Positions 4,227 through 35,413 of a stretch of DNA of 55,930 bases are shown one piece after another (within the stretch, counting starts at the first letter, position 1; each line of letters starts with the position of its first letter). Made by a program: the position numbers and the translations under genes. The stretch comes from a virus. Location: IMG/VR virus record IMGVR_UViG_3300046674_000388, positions 1-55,930 of that record. One strand, written 5' to 3'. The notes under the pieces are model-generated. The model was not told the origin of the DNA, did not search any database, and saw only the letters and a list, made by a program, of their open reading frames with translations.

Positions 4227-5267
4227 ATGGACAACGACCGGCTCCCGGCCGTCATCGACGCCGAACTCCTGCCCGACACCACGGGATCTGTCGAGCACAC
4301 GCTCACACCCGAGGCAGCCGCCCTCCTCGATGCCGCCGACGCCGCCAACACCAAGCTCGCCTACAGCCGCCAGTGGGGCGCCTTCCACAGCTGGTGCCAG
4401 GACCACGGCGTCACCGCCCTGCCCGCCACCTCGAAGACGCTCGCCAACTACGTCGGGCACCTCGCCACCACCCCGTCAGCGCGAACCGGCCGCACCCCGG
4501 CTCCCAGCAGCATCGAGCAGGCCATCGCCGTCATCCGCTCCGCCCACAAGCACGCCGGACACAAGGGCCACCCGGACACCACCGAGGCACTGAAAGCGCT
4601 GAAGGCGTACAGGAAGCAGCTCGCCAACACCGGGCAGCGCAAGCGCAAGGCCCCACCCATCACCCTCGCCAAGGTCCGGCTCCTCGTCGAGTCCTGCGAC
4701 CCGGGCACGCTCGCCGGACTCCGCGACCGCGCCATCCTCGTCCTCGGCTTCGCCATGATGGCCCGCCGCTCCGAACTCGCCGGCCTCCACCTGGAGGACG
4801 TCGTCGAGGACGACAGCGGCGACCTGACGATCCTGGTCCGCTCCTCGAAGACCGACCAGGCAGGCGAGGGCGTCGAGGTCATCGTGCCGCGTGGCGTCCA
4901 CGACGGCACCGATCCGGTCCGCGTCGTCCGTGCCTACCGGCAGGCCCTCGCAGCCCGAGGCATCACCACCGGCCGGCTCCTGCGCGCCATCAACCAGTGG
5001 GACCAGGTGAGCCACGACTCGATGTCCGGGGGTGCCATCAACGAGATGGTGCAGCGCCGGGCTGCCGTCGCACTGCCCGGGGATGGGCTGGCGTACACCG
5101 CGCACGGTTTCCGGGCGGGTGGGGCGACCGAGGCGTACCGCAACAAGGCGCCGATCTCGTCGATCCGCATGCAGGGCCGGTGGGCGGAGAACTCGCCGCA
5201 GGTGCTGGAGTACATCCGCGCTGTCGACGCGCGCGAGGAGAACCCCATGCGCGGCATCGGCCTGTAG
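4227..5267 (+). CDS. int: Tyrosine recombinase / integrase
   Basis: 346 residues. The N-terminal core-binding (SAM-like) domain spans about 25-135 and the catalytic domain about 145-346. Visible catalytic residues are Arg180 (in ARRSEL), Lys208 (SSKTD), His293 and Arg296 (HGFRAGG), Trp319 in the second-His position (GRW) and the nucleophile Tyr329 (LEYIR). All are present, so the enzyme should be active in strand exchange between attP and attB. The start has no ribosome site and may be leaderless. A strong terminator follows. It is the first of two integrases of different type here; which one integrates the phage cannot be told from sequence. Confidence 0.9.
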   Translation: MDNDRLPAVIDAELLPDTTGSVEHTLTPEAAALLDAADAANTKLAYSRQWGAFHSWCQDHGVTALPATSKTLANYVGHLATTPSARTGRTPAPSSIEQAIAVIRSAHKHAGHKGHPDTTEALKALKAYRKQLANTGQRKRKAPPITLAKVRLLVESCDPGTLAGLRDRAILVLGFAMMARRSELAGLHLEDVVEDDSGDLTILVRSSKTDQAGEGVEVIVPRGVHDGTDPVRVVRAYRQALAARGITTGRLLRAINQWDQVSHDSMSGGAINEMVQRRAAVALPGDGLAYTAHGFRAGGATEAYRNKAPISSIRMQGRWAENSPQVLEYIRAVDAREENPMRGIGL

Positions 5268-7994: not shown

Positions 7995-8026
7995 GCCGGC
8001 CCCCGCGGTGCACCGCGGGGGCCGGT
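7995..8026 (-). terminator. Terminator of the serine recombinase gene
   Basis: GCCGGCCCCCGCGGTG (7995-8010) pairs almost perfectly with CACCGCGGGGGCCGGT (8011-8026). It starts 2 bases beyond the recombinase stop codon, read leftward. Confidence 0.75.
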
Positions 8027-8027
8027 G

Positions 8028-9443
8028 CTATGCGTCGAGGGGTACCATCCGGCCAGGCTCGAAGCGTCGCTGCCCCTCGGTAGCAGGCAGTACCCGGTAC
8101 CCGGACGTGACCGCGCGCACCACATCGCGGCGCCCCGCAGGGTCGAGCCTCAGCCACTCCTCCACTGGGTCACCTGCGAGGAGCGCCCGGACCACGCCGG
8201 GCAGCGCGGATCCAAGCAGGGCTTTGCTTTCCTGGATGCGCGCGCTGATGATCGTCCTGGCCTCGTTGTACTCCGGGAACGTCAGCTCACGCCGGGCCCA
8301 CATACCGGCCAGCTCTTTCAGCTGCTGCTCGTCCGCCGCCAACTCGGTGCGGGCTGCGGCCACGGTGTCGTCCGCGAACGTGCTTTTCATGGCTGCGATG
8401 ACGGTCGGGGCGCCCAGGAACTGCAGCATCTGTCGTTCGATCTCGGCTTCTGCCCGGGGGGCGCTGATCGTGATCTTGCCGCAGCCGCCGCGGGTCGTCG
8501 CACACCAGTACCGCAGATCGGACTTCGACCCCCACCCGACCAGCCAGCGGTCGCACCGGCTGCACAGCAACACGCCGTTCAGCCAGCGGATCAGGGCGTT
8601 GTTCTCGCCGGGCAGCGTCCGCCGCTCCTTCAGCGCAGCCTGCACCTGGGTCCAGACGTCGCGGTCGAGGATGGGTGGCCAAGCGGCCTCGCCAACGACC
8701 TCGCCACGGAACACCCGCAGGCCCGTAATCCGGGGGCTGCCCATGGTGTTCCGTACGCCGCGGGTGGTCCACGCTTGGGCGTAGGGCGGGGGTGGCCCCT
8801 CCGCGTTGAGGTGCCGCATGACGCCGTGGATGCTCTCGCCGGCGAGCAGGAGTTCGGCCATGGTGCGGATCCCCTGAGCCTCGGCCTCACGGATGGTCAT
8901 GCCGTCGGGCTCGTAGCCGAAGGCGCGCAGGCCGCCGCCGGCGGGTTTGCCCTTCTCGGCGAGCTCCTCGTGCTTGCGGGCGACGCGGCGCGAGGTGTCC
9001 CTGCTCGACTTGTTGGCGACGGCGACCATGACGCGGGCCATGGTGATGTCCGCGTCGGTGTCGAGACGGAGGGAGCCGGTGACGCTGGAGACGGGGACGC
9101 GCCGCTGCTCAACGACGTCGATGAGGTCTTCGAGGTCGCGGGGGTCGCGGGTGTACCGGTCGAGGTCGTATGCGAGCAGGCCGTCGCGTTCGCCGCTAGC
9201 CAGCAGGGCGAGGGAGCGGCGCAGGCCGGGGCGGAAGGTGCGCATGGCGGTGGTGCCGTCCGGCAGGGTGACCTTGCGGCGCTTGAAGGCCGAGGTGTCG
9301 TTCTCGACGATGACCTCGGCGATTCCCCAGCCGAGCCGGTCGCCGTGCAGCCGTCCGTCCGTCTCCTGGCGGGCGACACCCAGGCCCTCGCCTTCACGGT
9401 CGTCCGAAATTCGAACAAGCAGAATGGCCCTCTTCGGCAGCAT
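8028..9443 (-). CDS. int: Large serine recombinase / serine integrase
   Basis: 471 residues, the usual length. The resolvase catalytic domain (about 6-150) has the nucleophile Ser13 (LLVRISDDREG) and the conserved LLAYDLDRYTRDPRDLEDLI. The recombinase domain follows at about 165-275 (AFGYEPDG; GLRVFRGEVVG), then a zinc ribbon with Cys294, Cys297, Cys314 and Cys321, and a coiled-coil segment (about 360-430). It is intact and should cut both DNA partners with 2-bp overhangs. A 52-bp dyad lies 4 bases upstream of its start and is the natural attP candidate. This is the second integrase of the genome. Confidence 0.9.
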   Translation of the reverse strand: MLPKRAILLVRISDDREGEGLGVARQETDGRLHGDRLGWGIAEVIVENDTSAFKRRKVTLPDGTTAMRTFRPGLRRSLALLASGERDGLLAYDLDRYTRDPRDLEDLIDVVEQRRVPVSSVTGSLRLDTDADITMARVMVAVANKSSRDTSRRVARKHEELAEKGKPAGGGLRAFGYEPDGMTIREAEAQGIRTMAELLLAGESIHGVMRHLNAEGPPPPYAQAWTTRGVRNTMGSPRITGLRVFRGEVVGEAAWPPILDRDVWTQVQAALKERRTLPGENNALIRWLNGVLLCSRCDRWLVGWGSKSDLRYWCATTRGGCGKITISAPRAEAEIERQMLQFLGAPTVIAAMKSTFADDTVAAARTELAADEQQLKELAGMWARRELTFPEYNEARTIISARIQESKALLGSALPGVVRALLAGDPVEEWLRLDPAGRRDVVRAVTSGYRVLPATEGQRRFEPGRMVPLDA

Positions 9444-9447
9444 GGTT

Positions 9448-9499
9448 GATAGGTTACACCTGACACTTCGGAGTGCCCAAATGGCTAATGTAACCTATC
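9448..9499. other. Candidate attP for the serine recombinase
   Basis: Outer arms GATAGGTTAC (9448-9457) and GTAACCTATC (9490-9499) are a perfect 10-bp inverted repeat. The symmetry continues inward: counting pairs from the centre at 9473/9474, 18 of 26 are complementary. Total length 52 bp, position next to the integrase start, and a non-palindromic central GT fit known serine-integrase attP sites. Core and dinucleotide are inferred from symmetry only. Confidence 0.6.
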
Positions 9500-9511
9500 C
9501 GATTTCCACGA

Positions 9512-9554
9512 AAGAGCCCCGTCACGCTGAGCTATCAGCGCAGGCGGGGCTCTT
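9512..9554 (-). terminator. Terminator downstream of the 76-aa minus-strand gene
   Basis: AAGAGCCCCG (9512-9521) pairs with CGGGGCTCTT (9545-9554), with an inner CGCTGA/TCAGCG stem and GCTA loop. On the minus strand it is followed by TTTCG. It would insulate the integrase from upstream transcription. Confidence 0.75.
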
Positions 9555-10601: not shown

Positions 10602-10904
10602 TTGTCCCAATCCCTCACGCTGCGATTCCGCCTCAGGTCCCCGCAGCTGCTCCAGACCATCAGGCAGCACACCGGTGACGGCACCCGTGCCACCACCCGG
10701 GAGCTTGCCGATCTCGCCGGCGTACACCCCAGCTTCATCGGCAAGCTCCTCAAGGGAGAGCAGGAGACCGTCGCGGCCAAGGTTGCGTTCGCAATCTCCG
10801 GGCGGTGCGGCGTCGATCTCCTTGTCCTGTGGGAGCCCGTCGAGCGGACGACCACCCCGGCACTCCGCAGCGGGCCCCTACCGATAGCGGCGGCGGCCCA
10901 CTGA
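10602..10904 (+). CDS. Rightward HTH regulator (Cro/repressor-like)
   Basis: 100 residues from a TTG start preceded by GGAGGACGACTC. The HTH is at about 30-60: TTRELADLAGVHPSFIGKLL, followed by KGEQETVAAKVAFAISGRCG. It is the first gene right of the control region and so probably the counterpart of the leftward XRE protein, acting on the same CACTCCC/GGGAGTG operators. The message overlaps the next gene by TGATG. Confidence 0.75.
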   Translation: MSQSLTLRFRLRSPQLLQTIRQHTGDGTRATTRELADLAGVHPSFIGKLLKGEQETVAAKVAFAISGRCGVDLLVLWEPVERTTTPALRSGPLPIAAAAH

Positions 10905-15180: not shown

Positions 15181-15215
15181 GCCCGTGGCGGGGCGACACC
15201 ACCCCCGCCACGGGC
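15181..15215 (+). terminator. Strong hairpin between WhiB group and replication genes
   Basis: GCCCGTGGCGGG (15181-15192) pairs perfectly over 12 bp with CCCGCCACGGGC (15204-15215). It lies in a 77-base gap with no gene and could be a terminator or attenuator. Confidence 0.6.
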
Positions 15216-15247
15216 ACCCAACCCCACCGACCGAGGACGCCGAGCAG

Positions 15248-16216
15248 ATGCCCTGGTTCGCCATCGACGACGGCTTCTACAGCCACCCGAAGGTCCGCAA
15301 GGCAGGTAACGCCGCCGCCGGACTGTTCTGCCGGCTCGGCGCGTTCAGCGCCAAGCACTCGACCAACGGACAGATTGACGGCGTCGTGGCCCGCGACTAC
15401 GGCACCGCCGCCCAACTGGCCAAGCTCGTCACCGTTGGGATGCTCCACGACGAGCCTCACGCCTGCGACTCCACGCGCTGCCTGCAGCCGCCAATCGGCG
15501 GCTACGCCATCCACGACTACCTCTTCTATAACCGCTCCCGGAAGCAGGTTGAGGCGGCCCGGGAGGCCGGCCGCAAGCGTCAGCAGAAGGGCCGCGACGC
15601 GCAGGCCGAAGCACGAACCGGGCCTCAACCGGGCCTCAACCGGGCCTCACCTGAAACTCAGGCGAACCCCGGGTGGGCCCCGATTACCCCCCAAAACGAA
15701 TCCCGGTTTTCAGGTAGGACAGCAGGTCAGGAGGGTTCGTCACGGCGTGACACCCTCCAGGGTCCAACGGTGGTCCCCTCCCACCCCCTCCCCTCCCCGT
15801 TCTCTCCTAACGGAGAGAACGGGGCCCCTACTACAACGGAGCGAGCAGCGGCCTACCCGGATCGCCTCGTCGAGCTCAAGCAAGCAATCGCCGCAGCCGG
15901 AATCGCCGGGATCGAATGGCGCCTCAGGCCCTCCCAGTGGGAGTACACCCGCCAAGCGCAGGAGCGCGTCGGAGTCCCCGCGATGGTCGCCTACGCCATC
16001 CGCTCCGTGCAGCTCAAGGGAGCGCCCACGGGCGCCAGCGCCTGGGTCGACGGATGGTGCTCCCTTGAAGCCCCGCCCGAGAACGGCGTGACCTACCTCC
16101 CCGCCGTCGTCAACGGCCCCGCGCGCCCATCCACCACCGACCAGCGCGTCCAGCAGGCCATCGAAGCCGGACGCCGAGTCCAAGCCATGGCCGACGCCCG
16201 GAAGGGGCAGCAGTGA
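15248..16216 (+). CDS. Replication initiation-like protein (winged-helix N-terminus)
   Basis: 322 residues; ATG preceded by CGAGGACGCCGAG. The first 115 residues (WFAIDDGFYSHPKVRKAGNA; AARDYG-type helix; GGYAIHDYLFYNRSRKQVEA) form the winged-helix domain found at the start of many actinobacterial phage replication proteins of the DnaD/replisome-organiser kind. A low-complexity linker (about 115-195) joins it to a C-terminal helical region (about 200-322). It should bind the origin or load helicase with the next gene product. Linker codons show repeated GGCCTCAACCG, a local duplication. Confidence 0.6.
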   Translation: MPWFAIDDGFYSHPKVRKAGNAAAGLFCRLGAFSAKHSTNGQIDGVVARDYGTAAQLAKLVTVGMLHDEPHACDSTRCLQPPIGGYAIHDYLFYNRSRKQVEAAREAGRKRQQKGRDAQAEARTGPQPGLNRASPETQANPGWAPITPQNESRFSGRTAGQEGSSRRDTLQGPTVVPSHPLPSPFSPNGENGAPTTTERAAAYPDRLVELKQAIAAAGIAGIEWRLRPSQWEYTRQAQERVGVPAMVAYAIRSVQLKGAPTGASAWVDGWCSLEAPPENGVTYLPAVVNGPARPSTTDQRVQQAIEAGRRVQAMADARKGQQ

Positions 16217-23146: not shown

Positions 23147-24550
23147 ATGGCCACCCAGCACGCCGGCGGCAGTGTCACGCTCCACCTGGGCAACAGCCTG
23201 GACGTGCTCGCTGGCCTGCCTGACGCCAGCATCGACGCCATCGTCACCGACCCTCCATACGAGATCGGCTTCATGGGCCGCACCTGGGACTCCACCGGCA
23301 TCGCCTACAACGTCGAGCTGTGGCGGCACTGCTGGCGCGTCCTCAAGCCCGGCGGACACCTCCTCGCGTTCGGCGCCGCCCGCACCTACCACCGCCTCAC
23401 CGTCGCCATTGAGGACGCCGGCTTCGAGATCCGCGACTCCATCCACTGGATCTACGGCTCCGGCTTCCCCAAGGGCCAGGACATCGCGAAGCTGATAGAC
23501 CGCCGACGTGACGACCGCGAGCAGGTCCTGCAGGTCACCGCGTGGCTCGCCGCCGCCCGAGACGTCGCGGGCTGGACGAACAAGCAGATTGACGCGCTGT
23601 TTGGCTTCACCGGCGACATGGCAGGCCACTGGACTACCCAGGGCAAGGCCGCCTCTGTGCCCCGCCCCGAGCAGTGGGACCGCCTCCGCTCCGAGCTCGG
23701 CTTCGACGACACCGAGATCCTCCCCACTGTCGAGGAGATCAACGGCCGCAAGGGCCTGCTCGGCGAGGCCTGGGCCCGCCGAGAGGTCGTCGGCGAGGCG
23801 CACCGAATCCGCCGTGAGTCCGACGTGCAGCTCGCCGGACTCAGCAGCGGCACCTACACCCTCACCGCCCCCGCGACCGGTGCGGCCCGCCAGTGGGCCG
23901 GCTGGAACACCCAGCTCAAGCCATCGCACGAGCCCATCGTCCTCGCCCGCAAGTCCACCGGCTTCGAGTCCACCGTCGCGAACGTCCTCCTCCACGGCAC
24001 CGGCGCCCTCAACATCGACGGCTGCCGCACCGCGACCACCATCGGCGACGACTACCAGGCAAAGTGCGCGTCCGTCGTCGGCCTCGCCTCGAACCGCAAC
24101 GGCACGACGCTCGGCGAGTGGACCGGCACCCGCGAGGACAGCTCGCACCCGGCCGGCCGCTGGCCCACCAACATCCTGCTCGGCCACGGCCCCGACTGTG
24201 TCGATGGCGACCAGTGCGAGGCCGGTTGCCCGGTCGGCGAGCTTGGCCCGCGCGGCCGGTTCTTCCCCGCGTTCCGGTACGAGGCCAAGGCCCCCGCGTC
24301 GGAGCGCCCACGTACCGCCGACGGCACCGCGCACACCACCGTCAAGCCCCTCGCGCTGATGCGCTGGCTGGTCCGCCTCGTCACCCCGCCCGGCGGCCTC
24401 GTCCTCGACCCGTTCGCCGGGTCCGGCACCACGTTGGAGGCCTGCGTGCTGGAAGGCATGCGCGCCGTCGGTGTCGAGCTCGACCCGGCGCATGCCGAGC
24501 TGTGCCGGGCCCGCCTGTCAAAGCCGATCGACCTGCCCCTTTTCGCCTGA
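23147..24550 (+). CDS. DNA adenine/cytosine-N4 methyltransferase
   Basis: 467 residues. Motif IV DPPY is at 35-38 and motif I FAGSGTT at 423-429, so motif IV comes first, the beta-class order. RWLVRLVTPPGGLVLDPFAG shows the SAM-binding strand. A long inserted middle (about 95-340, starting WIYGSGFPKGQDI) is typical of phage enzymes that often carry their own target domain. DPPY fits N6-adenine best. No cognate endonuclease is near, so it is probably a self-protection or regulatory enzyme rather than part of a restriction pair. A hairpin terminator follows. Confidence 0.85.
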   Translation: MATQHAGGSVTLHLGNSLDVLAGLPDASIDAIVTDPPYEIGFMGRTWDSTGIAYNVELWRHCWRVLKPGGHLLAFGAARTYHRLTVAIEDAGFEIRDSIHWIYGSGFPKGQDIAKLIDRRRDDREQVLQVTAWLAAARDVAGWTNKQIDALFGFTGDMAGHWTTQGKAASVPRPEQWDRLRSELGFDDTEILPTVEEINGRKGLLGEAWARREVVGEAHRIRRESDVQLAGLSSGTYTLTAPATGAARQWAGWNTQLKPSHEPIVLARKSTGFESTVANVLLHGTGALNIDGCRTATTIGDDYQAKCASVVGLASNRNGTTLGEWTGTREDSSHPAGRWPTNILLGHGPDCVDGDQCEAGCPVGELGPRGRFFPAFRYEAKAPASERPRTADGTAHTTVKPLALMRWLVRLVTPPGGLVLDPFAGSGTTLEACVLEGMRAVGVELDPAHAELCRARLSKPIDLPLFA

Positions 24551-24563
24551 CCTGCCTGCCAAC

Positions 24564-24589
24564 GCCGGGCGGCCCCAACGCCGCCCGGC
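24564..24589 (+). terminator. Terminator after the N6-type methyltransferase
   Basis: GCCGGGCGGC (24564-24573) and GCCGCCCGGC (24580-24589) pair perfectly with a 6-base loop, 14 bases after the stop. Confidence 0.65.
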
Positions 24590-24613
24590 CCGCCACCAGC
24601 ACAGGAGACCCAC

Positions 24614-24982
24614 ATGCAGCAGCTCACCATCGCCGCCTACCGCACCCACGCCGAGGGCCGCACCCAGATCGTCATCTCCCGCACCGACGAGAACGGCCGC
24701 GGCGAGGGCTACCGCCTCGCCGGCCCGAAGCACTACAACTCCGGCACCACCCAGCTGGTGACGTCGGACCTGGACGAGCGTGACGCCCGCGAACTGCGCG
24801 CCATGCTCGACGCCGTCTTCCCAGTCGACCAGGCCGAGTACCGCAACCAGGTGCTCGCCGAGGCCGCCGACCTGCTGAAGGCCCAGCACGCCGCCGTGTA
24901 CGACGACGCGGGCGGCAAGGTCGCGTCCGGCCTGCTGATCGGCGCGGACCTGCTGCTGGCCGCCCGCACCCAGGAGCGCTGA
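24614..24982 (+). CDS. Small phage protein, 122 aa, unknown
   Basis: ATG after CAGGAGACCCAC. Beta N-terminus (LTIAAYRTHAEGRTQIVISR) and helical C-terminus (YRNQVLAEAADLLKAQHAAV). No family recognised. Confidence 0.5.
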   Translation: MQQLTIAAYRTHAEGRTQIVISRTDENGRGEGYRLAGPKHYNSGTTQLVTSDLDERDARELRAMLDAVFPVDQAEYRNQVLAEAADLLKAQHAAVYDDAGGKVASGLLIGADLLLAARTQER

Positions 24983-24985
24983 CCA

Positions 24986-25252
24986 ATGGCCGACAGTCAG
25001 CCCGTCAGCCCCTGGGATCGACTGGTCACCTCCTGCACCCGGGCGTTGGAGGCTACGGGCACCGCGACCCCGCCGAACCCGCTCAAGCCTGACATCTGCC
25101 CGCTCCGGCACGACTGCGACTGGTGGCCGGTGGAGTCCATCGACGAACACCTCCACCGGGCGCACAGCAAGGTCGAACTCGTCGAGGCGGTCAGCGATCT
25201 GCTCGACGTCGCCCGAGCCGTTCACGCCGCCCGTACCGCGCCGACCCGCTGA
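24986..25252 (+). CDS. Small protein with possible CCHH zinc finger, 88 aa
   Basis: Starts 4 bases after the previous stop. CPLRHDCDWWPVESIDEHLH then RAH gives Cys-x5-Cys-x11-His-x3-His, close to a C2H2 finger, followed by a helix (SKVELVEAVSDLLDVARAVH). It lies just before the C5 methyltransferase. Confidence 0.5.
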   Translation: MADSQPVSPWDRLVTSCTRALEATGTATPPNPLKPDICPLRHDCDWWPVESIDEHLHRAHSKVELVEAVSDLLDVARAVHAARTAPTR

Positions 25253-25262
25253 GGAGCACACC

Positions 25263-26552
25263 ATGCAGCCCGACACGCTGGACCTGTTCGCCGGCCCCGG
25301 CGGCTGGTCCGAGGGCCTCCGCCGCTGGCACGGCATCCCGGACATCGGCATCGAATGGGACGCCGCCGCCTGCCGCACCCGGGCCGCCGCCGGGCACCAC
25401 ACCGTGCGCGCCGACATCGCCACCCTCGCCACCGCACCAATGCGCGGCCGTATCCGCCGCCTCATCGCCTCCCCGCCCTGCCAGGCATGGTCACGCGCCG
25501 GCAAGCGCCTCGGCCTCGTCGACCAGCCCCTCGTTCACCAGGCCGTTCACGACCTTGCCCACGGCCGCGACACCCGGGCGAAGCTGCTGACCGTCTGCAA
25601 GGACCCGCGGTCGCTGCTCGCCGCCGAACCGATGCGCTACCTGGCCGACCTGCGGCCCGACGACGTGGTCATGGAGGAAGTCCCCGACGTGCTGCCGCTG
25701 TGGCGGCAGTACGCCGAGACGCTGCGCGGCTGGGGCTACAGCGTGTGGACGGGCGAGCTGAACGCCGCGGACTACGGGGTCCCGCAGACCCGCCGCCGGG
25801 CGATCCTCATCGCCTCCCGGGTACGAGCCGTACAGGCCCCGAGCCCGACGCACGCCCGGGACGCCGAAGAGCCCGACCTGTTCGGTGCGGCACGGCCCCG
25901 CTGGGTGTCAATGGCTGACGCCCTCGGCTGGGGTGCTACCGACCGGCCCGTGCCCACGGTGACGGCCGGCGGCGGGAAGACGGGCGGCGCCGAGCCGTTC
26001 CCCACGCAGGCCCGCGCGGCCCTCGCGGCGTCCCGCGACCGCGGCGACTGGATCCTCCACACCCGGCGCGGGCACGTCCGTGCGGACGGCGAGCGGCAGT
26101 TGGTCGACCCCCAGGGACAGCCGGCGCCGACCGTCACCACGATGACGGGTGAGCAGTGGGTCCTGCGGTCCGGGCAGTCCGTTGCAGGGGAGGGCCGTGC
26201 GACCCGCGGCCTGGACGAGCCCGCCGTCACTATCACCGGCCGCGCCGACCTGTGCGCCTGGACGACCGAACGGCCCGCGACCACCGTGTGCGCCACCGAC
26301 CGGATCGCCCGGCCCGGCCACCGCGACCGCAGCCCCGGCGGCGAGGCGCAGTTCACCGACTCGGTGCGCATCACCGCCATCGAGGCCGCGCTCCTCCAGT
26401 CGTTCCCCGCCGGCTACCCGTGGCAGGGAACGAAGACTAAGCAGTTCGAGCAGATCGGTAACGCGGTGCCGCCGCTGCTGGCCGCGCACGTGTGTGCCGC
26501 GGCGTTCGGTCTGCCGCAGCCCACCGCCACCCCCGCGGCCCTGGCCGCCTGA
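25263..26552 (+). CDS. DNA (cytosine-5) methyltransferase
   Basis: 429 residues. Motif I DLFAGPGG (7-14), motif IV PPCQ with catalytic Cys73, motif VI present as EEV (138-140) instead of the usual ENV, motif VIII QTRRRA (175-180), and motif X GNAVPP (399-404). All residues needed for C5 methylation are visible apart from the Asn of ENV, replaced here by Glu. The target recognition part carries four copies of a PTVT-like phrase (near 228, 286, 319, 337), also seen in other phage Dcm-type enzymes. No partner nuclease is near. It may protect the DNA from host restriction. Confidence 0.85.
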   Translation: MQPDTLDLFAGPGGWSEGLRRWHGIPDIGIEWDAAACRTRAAAGHHTVRADIATLATAPMRGRIRRLIASPPCQAWSRAGKRLGLVDQPLVHQAVHDLAHGRDTRAKLLTVCKDPRSLLAAEPMRYLADLRPDDVVMEEVPDVLPLWRQYAETLRGWGYSVWTGELNAADYGVPQTRRRAILIASRVRAVQAPSPTHARDAEEPDLFGAARPRWVSMADALGWGATDRPVPTVTAGGGKTGGAEPFPTQARAALAASRDRGDWILHTRRGHVRADGERQLVDPQGQPAPTVTTMTGEQWVLRSGQSVAGEGRATRGLDEPAVTITGRADLCAWTTERPATTVCATDRIARPGHRDRSPGGEAQFTDSVRITAIEAALLQSFPAGYPWQGTKTKQFEQIGNAVPPLLAAHVCAAAFGLPQPTATPAALAA

Positions 26553-33160: not shown

Positions 33161-35413
33161 ATGTCCGAGTACACGACCGGCCCCACCCCCGGCCCCGCCG
33201 ACGACGAACCCGGCGTCTACGACCTCACCAAGAACTTCCCCGCCGAGTACCTCGCCGAGCTGGAAACCGCGATGCAGGCCGAAGCCTCACTCAGCGAGCA
33301 CGGCCGCCGCGGCGCCATGGTCGGCACCATCATCGAACCGACCATCCCGCAGCAGCGCGGTTGGGCCACCGAGGCTGCGGCACGGGCGCTCCCCGCCTGG
33401 GCTGCCGACCCCGAGACCCTGGCCCGGTCCGTCCGCCAGGCCCGCGCCGAAGCCGTCTACCGGGTCCTGTTCCACACGATGCGGACCCCCGCCTACGCCG
33501 CCCGCGTCCTGCTCCTCGCCAGCCGAGGCGCCTGGGCCGCTCCCCGCGACGCCGCGCACTTCTTCCTCGCCGGCGAGTACAACACCGGCATCAAAGCCGC
33601 GAAGAAGAGCCGCGACGACGCCCGTGTCCTGGTGCTCCGCGACGAGAAGGCGTCCGTCACCAAGGACCGGCAGCGCTCCGCCCGCCACCTGGTCGCCACC
33701 GGCGGGTCCCTCACCTACGTCGGCGCGGCCGTCCTCACCGCCATGGCCGGCCAGTGGATCGTCGCCGGGCCGCTCCTCGCCCTGCTGACCGGCGTCCTCG
33801 CCGTCATCGGCCACAAGGACAAGACCGGAGCCGACCCCGCGTTCCACCTCCTCGACGCCACCCCCACCACCACCGGGCCCGTCACCGACACACGCATCGA
33901 GGAGGCGTTCCGCGCCGCCGGCGTCATCGGCGCCAAGGAGGCCCTGCAGTTCACCGGCGCTGGCACCGGTCGGGAGAAGACCGCCGCCGTCGCCACCCTC
34001 AAGCTGCCCGCCGGCACCATCGCCGCCGACGCCATCAAGAAGCTCCGCGAGATCGCCGGCGCCCTCGACGTAGCCGCCTCCCAGGTCGACATCCGCCAGG
34101 AAGGCGCCGAGTCCCGTCTGTCCATCTGGATCGCCGACAAGGACCCGTTCGCCACCTCCCGCCGCTCCCCCCTCCTCACCCACCGCGGCCCCATCGACGC
34201 GTTCACCGACGGCATCCCCGTCGTCTTCGACAAGCGCGGCCAGGCCGTCCCCCTCACCATCCGCGACGCCATGCTGCTGATCGCCGGCATGACCCGCTCC
34301 GGCAAGGGCGTCGGCTACTCCTCCGTCGTCTGCGGCGCCGGCATGGACCCGCGCATCAACATCCGCAACGTGTACGGCAAAGCCACCGGCGAGCACGTCC
34401 CCTACGCCCCGGTCTGCGCCACGTTCTTCAAGCGCAACCCCGAGCGCCTCGCCCTGCTCCTGCAGATCCTGGAGAAGGAGCTCCTGCGCCGCGAGGACCG
34501 CCTTGCCGACCTCGGCACCGACAAGCTCACCCCCAGGCTCCTGGAAGAGATGCCGATCGAGCTCGTCCTGATCGACGAGTTCGCCTTCTACGTCGGCGAC
34601 GAGAAGGACGAGACGGCCAAGCAGATCATCGCCTCGCTGAAGCAGATCGCCGCGATGGGCGCCGCCCTCGGCGTGCTCCTCGTCCTCGCCACCCAGGACC
34701 CCAACGCCAAGCTCGTCCCGTCCCCTCTGCGCCGGAACTTCCTCAACCGGTGGGCGATGCGGGTGGAGTCCGCGGACGCCTCCAACGCCATCCTCGGCGG
34801 CGCCGCATCGGGCGCCGGCTTCGACTCCTCGAAGCTGCCGGAGGGAACCCCGTCCGGCGTCGGCCACCTGCGCACCATCGACGGCACCCGGCTGACCCGC
34901 TCCTACTTCATCGACCGGGAACGCGGCGAGGTCGACGAGCTGATCGCCCGCGGCGTGGTGTACCGGTCGGAAGCTGGCCGCCTGGCCGGGCAGTTCGACG
35001 ACCCGATCGAGCAGGCACTGCTCGCCGCGACCGGCTTCACGTCCGCCTCGGGCGGGCCGCGTGGGGACGGCCGGCCGGGCAAGGCCGACATGCGGCAGTC
35101 CAGCGTGCGGGGCCTCCTCGGCGAGCTCCTCCAGGTGTTTGCCTCGGCCGGGAACCCGGAGCGGCTGACCACCTCGGCAATCGTCGCCGGCCTGGCCCGG
35201 ATCAACCCGGCCGACTGGCAGAAGGTCGCCGACGACACCGCGGCGAACGCCGGTACTGCGCTGAAGAACGCCATCACCCGCGCCCTCGCCAAGGACGCCG
35301 CCGAGGCTGGTCGTCCGCCTCGGATTCTCGACTCCGACCAGTGGGGCGGCAAGGACAAGGGCCGCGGCTACTGGCTGACCGCCGTTCGTGCCGCTGCCGG
35401 AATTGTCCAGTAA
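33161..35413 (+). CDS. FtsK/TraB-like DNA translocase
   Basis: 750 residues. Two membrane spans lie at about 180-222 (TYVGAAVLTAMAGQWIVAG). The ATPase has Walker A GMTRSGKG (376-383), in which Arg takes the place of the usual Gly and Gly follows Lys, and Walker B LVLIDEF with Asp472-Glu473. LLVLATQDPNAKL at about 505 is the FtsK-type sensor region. The C-terminal 130 residues are helical with no clear gamma (KOPS-reading) domain. Such proteins move double-stranded DNA in Streptomyces conjugation (TraB, TraSA) or chromosome segregation. In a phage it could help replicate, partition or deliver DNA. Confidence 0.8.
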   Translation: MSEYTTGPTPGPADDEPGVYDLTKNFPAEYLAELETAMQAEASLSEHGRRGAMVGTIIEPTIPQQRGWATEAAARALPAWAADPETLARSVRQARAEAVYRVLFHTMRTPAYAARVLLLASRGAWAAPRDAAHFFLAGEYNTGIKAAKKSRDDARVLVLRDEKASVTKDRQRSARHLVATGGSLTYVGAAVLTAMAGQWIVAGPLLALLTGVLAVIGHKDKTGADPAFHLLDATPTTTGPVTDTRIEEAFRAAGVIGAKEALQFTGAGTGREKTAAVATLKLPAGTIAADAIKKLREIAGALDVAASQVDIRQEGAESRLSIWIADKDPFATSRRSPLLTHRGPIDAFTDGIPVVFDKRGQAVPLTIRDAMLLIAGMTRSGKGVGYSSVVCGAGMDPRINIRNVYGKATGEHVPYAPVCATFFKRNPERLALLLQILEKELLRREDRLADLGTDKLTPRLLEEMPIELVLIDEFAFYVGDEKDETAKQIIASLKQIAAMGAALGVLLVLATQDPNAKLVPSPLRRNFLNRWAMRVESADASNAILGGAASGAGFDSSKLPEGTPSGVGHLRTIDGTRLTRSYFIDRERGEVDELIARGVVYRSEAGRLAGQFDDPIEQALLAATGFTSASGGPRGDGRPGKADMRQSSVRGLLGELLQVFASAGNPERLTTSAIVAGLARINPADWQKVADDTAANAGTALKNAITRALAKDAAEAGRPPRILDSDQWGGKDKGRGYWLTAVRAAAGIVQ

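Follow-up and report, generated by a model that had tools for sequence, protein, structure and literature searches.

A 52-bp dyad beside a large serine integrase gene is very probably the intact attP of a tailed phage whose integrase relatives insert into comEA

The window, by which we mean the whole stretch of DNA analysed here, comes from a soil phage. Its genes for terminase, portal, protease, capsid and tail proteins occupy 40-54 kb, one for holin-type lysis lies at 2.2-3.3 kb, and its packaging and capsid genes resemble those of Streptomyces phage Dagobah (67% DNA identity over 68% of the query). Further genes include two DNA methyltransferase-like genes lying close together (23147-26552, plus strand), an FtsK/SpoIIIE-like gene (33161-35413) and a plus-strand gene for a replication-initiator-like protein (15185-16216); the latter two form a pair that we take to be reminiscent of actinomycete integrative conjugative elements, here situated inside a tailed-phage record. 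There is also a tyrosine recombinase-like gene (4227-5267, plus strand), which falls in PHROG 1, scores below the cut-off for Pfam PF00589 and has, among the matches listed, its closest phage relative in Microcystis phage Mwe-JY05 (44% identity).

The large serine recombinase of the window (Table 1) contains Resolvase (PF00239, 59.3 bits) and Recombinase (PF07508, 46.3 bits) domains, both above the Pfam cut-off, and matches the PHROGs integrase family phrog_95 with E 6.4e-72. The zinc-ribbon profile PF13408 reaches 20.1 bits, under its cut-off of 25.3, and the cysteines of the zinc-ribbon region (C294, C297, C314 and C321) are invariant in all six aligned sequences. Identity to phage relatives in GenBank is about 29-33% over the best 40 of 149 matches, and phage and plasmid relatives among the matches listed are about 37% identical or less. 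A sequence-based search of solved structures returned no match, and no characterised member of the family was found among the relatives examined. Just past the stop codon of the gene stands a strong GC-rich perfect inverted repeat (7996-8025), which is probably its terminator.

Four bases (9444-9447) separate the integrase start codon (ATG at 9443) from an imperfect dyad in which 18 of 26 pairs are symmetric around a central GT. A preliminary description of this DNA had reported the dyad with this extent and symmetry, its non-palindromic centre and its distance from the recombinase start, all of which we reproduced on rechecking sequence and coordinates; it had also given the perfect outer arms as 10 bp long, and these are indeed perfect and extend to 11 bp. 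Symmetry by itself is weak evidence across the window and rare beside the integrase. The whole window holds four centres with at least 18 of 26 pairs, where 20 shuffled windows averaged 1.2 (range 0-5), so that symmetry statistics are insufficient as sole proof of an attP site, and it also contains 10-bp inverted pairs nested around loops of 4-60 bp, 46 in all. Within the 100 bp beside the recombinase start, 2 of 20,000 dinucleotide shuffles reached 18/26, and 17 of 20,000 produced 10-bp arms at a spacing of 20-45 bp. A direct-repeat search near the dyad gave no second copy among the 20 of 23 families listed.

Table 1. Positions of the integrase gene, the predicted attP and neighbouring features in the window
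Feature	Position	Strand	Basis or remark
Large serine recombinase (integrase), 471 aa	8028..9443	-	Pfam Resolvase and Recombinase; PHROG 95 integrase
Predicted attP dyad, 52 bp, imperfect	9448..9499	-	Read in integrase orientation; symmetry and family half-site
Perfect outer arms, 11 bp each	9448-9458 / 9489-9499		
Predicted zinc-domain motif GTAACCTAT, +16 to +24, integrase-proximal half	9449..9457	-	Layout from PMC3783163
TAACCT within the attP arm, a candidate -10 element (TANNNT) for leaderless transcription of the integrase	9451..9456	-	Inferred
TCCGA, inner motif of the integrase-proximal half-site, +1 to +5	9468..9472	-	
GT at the centre (AC on the integrase strand), where the 2-bp crossover overlap is predicted	9473..9474		Aligns with the GA that relatives have in both attL and attR
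GCCCA, inner motif of the distal half-site, +1 to +5	9475..9479	+	
Predicted zinc-domain motif GTAACCTAT, +16 to +24, distal half	9490..9498	+	9/9 identical to the proximal copy
Probable terminator hairpin on the upstream side of attP	9512..9554	-	-31.1 kcal/mol, z -4.43
Helix-turn-helix regulator, in the block common to L013 and L062	9937..10323	-	HTH_31 24.2 bits, cut-off 27
Second, divergent helix-turn-helix gene, rightmost in the block that L013 also has	10602..10904	+	HTH_3 21.5 bits, cut-off 23

Genome and viral collections were searched for related integrases, with extra rounds over overlapping sets of 392, 394 and 296 genomes and over viral contigs. The nearest is L013 (IMG/VR 3300046536_000720), with 67% identity, and seven relatives located in, or starting with, chromosomal DNA (L002, L003, L012, L021, L078, L079 and L080) have integrases 54-57% identical to that of the window. 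In the tree the window groups with L013 and L063 (support 100/99) and L062 joins them (97/96), while the seven integrated relatives fall on the other side together with L064, which has an intact site in a viral contig; this division from the rows labelled AC, after the core dinucleotide considered below, has support of 100/99. The L063 integrase is without its N-terminus, and its core dinucleotide is not readable; L065 showed no readable target. Left out of the counts were L004-L009 (32-33% identity, other host sequence) and the distant or partial L010, L011, L014-L018 and L066-L076. The six integrases L004-L009 show another conserved host sequence just upstream, which constitutes a second common target, and a more distant relative, L099 (G864, found at E 1.8e-107), adjoins a different gene with a Walker-A-like motif; judging from this last neighbour, the choice of target seems to vary across the wider integrase family.

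In all seven integrated relatives the DNA upstream of the integrase is comEA coding sequence broken at the same point, namely the codon after Gly-Ile-Gly or Gly-Val-Gly, and when this break was placed by alignment on the integrase the junction fell in 7/7 cases at the base homologous to the centre of the window dyad. The gene is identified by Pfam domains HHH_3 and SLBB, both seen in the copy of L002, and TIGR00426 and TIGR01259 match the truncated comEA copy, both below cut-off. The opposite junction (attR) was found in three genomes (G001, G002 and G095); that of L012 was looked for and not found. In G095 the bases flanking the GA differ between the junctions, T in attL against C in attR on the left and T against C on the right, so that GA alone is common to both and the exchange is placed there, provided that both differences are original; these junctions fit a two-base crossover. 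Furthermore, attP sites rebuilt from the attL and attR of L002 and L003 have 15/26 symmetric pairs, and the best of all centres tested is the GA dinucleotide.

The seven elements occupy the 3' part of comEA, with the result that ComEA is truncated and cut off from the following gene. The three for which both ends were found span 16-25 kb (L002 16.8 kb, L003 16.1 kb and G095 about 24.5 kb from coordinates). Among the products of the L002 element is a DUF3987 protein, and none of the nine element genes scanned was recognised as a phage structural gene. Listeria phage A118 also targets a competence gene, comK. In the portions of the literature available, no report of comEA as an integration target was found for Streptomyces.

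Eleven family members, the window and ten relatives, share the half-site TCCGA-N10-GTAACCTA. Directly after the central dinucleotide (+1 to +5) the first base of TCCGA is conserved in 10/11 and the other four in 11/11, and GTAACCTA recurs at +16 to +23 with few changes, the mean information being 1.91 bits over +1 to +5, 0.62 over +6 to +15 and 1.61 over +16 to +23; on the integrase side, part of the conservation of the outer motif could be promoter conservation, as it overlaps a TANNNT match. A Listeria integrase, according to the excerpt of PMC3783163, uses half-sites of 25 bp whose zinc-domain motif occupies positions 16-24 and in attB is moved 5 bp inward. The family half-site agrees closely with this layout of recombinase-domain and zinc-domain contacts as given in that excerpt, though the numbering may be one base off. 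In the comEA attB of the relatives the best zinc-motif match in the left half is 5/9 at +11, that is 5 bp inward, a weak form of the expected signal; in the right half, judged by eye, the motif looks poor.

Beyond the site itself, a block at 7.95-10.85 kb comprising the integrase, attP, hairpin and regulator-like genes aligns as a unit with L013 (71% DNA identity over about 3 kb), and nearly all of it (7.74-10.44 kb) aligns with L062 (IMG/VR 3300046538_000194; 66% DNA identity over about 2.8 kb). The intact attP of L062 has long arms of its own at the same centre (17-18/26 pairs) with different arm letters and a GA core. L013, which has the AC core of the window, shows a weak left arm (3/9 outer positions, 11-12/26 pairs) and a higher-scoring symmetry centre 15 bp away from the homologous one; this weak arm counts against a strict need for symmetry. 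When viral contigs were searched with the half-site, only the record of L013 matched.

Based on these sequence comparisons, we consider that the dyad is very probably the intact attP of the adjacent large serine integrase. The suspicion to this effect in the preliminary description is borne out by the junctions of all seven relatives, the symmetry maxima of the rebuilt attP sites and the arms of L062. Beside a large serine recombinase gene we find a non-palindromic centre with a zinc motif near 16-24 in both halves, and the 52 bp with 18/26 pairs are comparable to the length of about 45-50 bp that the excerpt of PMC5311408 gives for an imperfect inverted repeat enclosing a spacer. The likeness in size and asymmetry to known attP sites of serine integrases, also pointed out earlier, agrees with what the excerpts of PMC5311408 and PMC3783163 report. 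Among these lines, the comparison with the relatives' junctions is the one that decides for the attP reading.

The arrangement upstream of the integrase bears on its transcription. The hairpin at 9512-9554 was not called in a scan for T-run terminators, and L013 has a hairpin at the same place followed by TTTTTT; in the window it is a probable insulator of attP and the integrase from the upstream minus-strand genes. If it terminates transcription, the integrase promoter would have to lie within 68 bp, mostly attP, and as only these 68 bp lie between hairpin and start codon the -10 element would fall in the integrase-side arm. A TANNNT hexamer occurs at +17 in 10/11 family members and in the window stands 7 nt before the ATG, the spacing expected for a leaderless transcript, so the integrase-side arm probably doubles as the carrier of the integrase -10 element; a sigma-70 scan gave no match for the integrase promoter. 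Leaderless transcripts account for about 21% of primary starts in S. coelicolor, where TANNNT is the common -10 (excerpt of PMC4895711). The same hexamer, and the position of the dyad directly at the integrase start, would also suit a dyad that is only an operator or promoter element controlling the integrase, for example a repressor site, with recombination taking place elsewhere. This we regard as highly improbable, given that the junctions of the seven integrated relatives coincide with the dyad centre and that the rebuilt attP sites peak on the same dinucleotide. The dyad may serve both as attP and as promoter.

Many metagenome virus records are proviruses, and the present one, a virus of 55,930 bases, is classed as linear with no end repeats noted, which could suggest that the dyad is an attL or attR of an integrated prophage and consists in part of host DNA. 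The probability of this is close to nil: the same outer motif is present in both halves, the shared block aligns across the site with both L013 and L062, and the attL of the relatives has a clear comEA half instead. Moreover, lysis, terminase, capsid and tail genes are distributed on the two sides of the dyad, and phage genes on both sides imply an intact attP, not an attL or attR. The tyrosine recombinase-like gene might allow lysogeny by another route and offers another candidate for the working integrase, with the serine integrase and its attP as a remnant. Its PHROG 1 integrase match (E 8.5e-17) and XerC/XerD-like matches far below cut-off speak for such a function, but the serine integrase has its full length and falls among intact relatives, the attP arms are perfect, and no homologue of the tyrosine gene was detected (tblastn, E 1e-3) in 13 relative loci, covering most of the record of L013 and parts of the others; we therefore think it very unlikely. 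With the dyad taken as attP, an integrase dimer would bind it with one subunit per half-site, touching the inner TCCGA/GCCCA motifs close to the crossover and reaching the outer GTAACCTAT copies through its zinc-ribbon domains. The integrase would then pair attP with a chromosomal attB, and 2-bp staggered cuts at the AC/GT, rotation and rejoining would follow. The reaction would presumably run towards an inserted phage flanked by attL and attR and carrying the integrase at one of its ends.

The core dinucleotide on the integrase strand is AC in the window and L013, and GA in the seven integrated relatives, L062 and L064, where in comEA the GA forms the first two bases of an Asp/Glu codon. The window thus has AC where the comEA-targeting group has GA, and the tree puts it outside the comEA rows (100/99). 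In a survey of 249 genomes of one family, with a pattern covering the comEA copies that fit GIG-x-R-R-F coding, the GA form was present in 80/249, the AC form in 0/249 and neither in 169/249. In another sample, in which 29 loci were read and 8 had no match to the anchor pattern, one AC-type comEA (L038) was seen among 21 empty sites. The search for a host site with the window's own core, as the preliminary description had proposed, covered comEA and yielded no attB for the window phage. Use of the usual comEA site by the window phage is unsupported, with AC at 0/249 against GA at 80/249 in the same sample, and no integrated relative with an AC core was encountered in the three overlapping genome sets or the viral contigs. 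The host target of the window phage is hence probably not the common comEA site.

The site is of a known kind, in an uncharacterised integrase family whose other members insert into comEA. In the excerpt of PMC5311408, the attP of phiJoe, a Streptomyces phage of the R4-like cluster, is likewise an imperfect inverted repeat with a central dinucleotide, about 50 bp or less in length and 18 bp upstream of the serine integrase gene; its core is GG as against AC/GT here, and the distance to the gene is 4 bp here. R4-type integrases among the matches listed are about 32% identical to that of the window. The attP of the Listeria A118/LI integrase has its zinc motif at 16-24 (excerpt of PMC3783163), like the outer block at +16 to +23 in the window's family, and differs in sequence motif and host, whereas the window's relatives target comEA in Streptomyces. 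The comEA elements share with the window the integrase family, the half-site and the junction position; they differ in their GA core, their separate tree group and, for the three measured, a length well short of a 56-kb tailed-phage record.

The window supplies an integrase and attP pair that could be tested as it stands, its family being remote from the phage and plasmid matches listed, and for the Streptomyces relatives attP, attB, attL and attR can all be read at comEA; such integrase/attP pairs serve as genome-engineering tools. Most worth following are the comEA target of the relatives and the AC/GA difference, which makes it simple to test how the choice of target and the crossover dinucleotide co-evolve. 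As a joint proposal, which we put forward tentatively and consider rather doubtful, an ancestral GA may have become AC in a natural retargeting, and the outer arm may be both the zinc-domain site and the -10 element. If so, the integrases of the window and L013 would descend from GA-crossing ones with the rest of the half-site kept, and once both bases of the core had changed the phages would have had to turn to another target in the chromosome, or else to those rare comEA alleles in which the codon is ACN for threonine. An attP-bound integrase would then shut off its own promoter, the integrase gene being leaderless, and the family's history would preserve a case of natural retargeting by way of its crossover dinucleotide.
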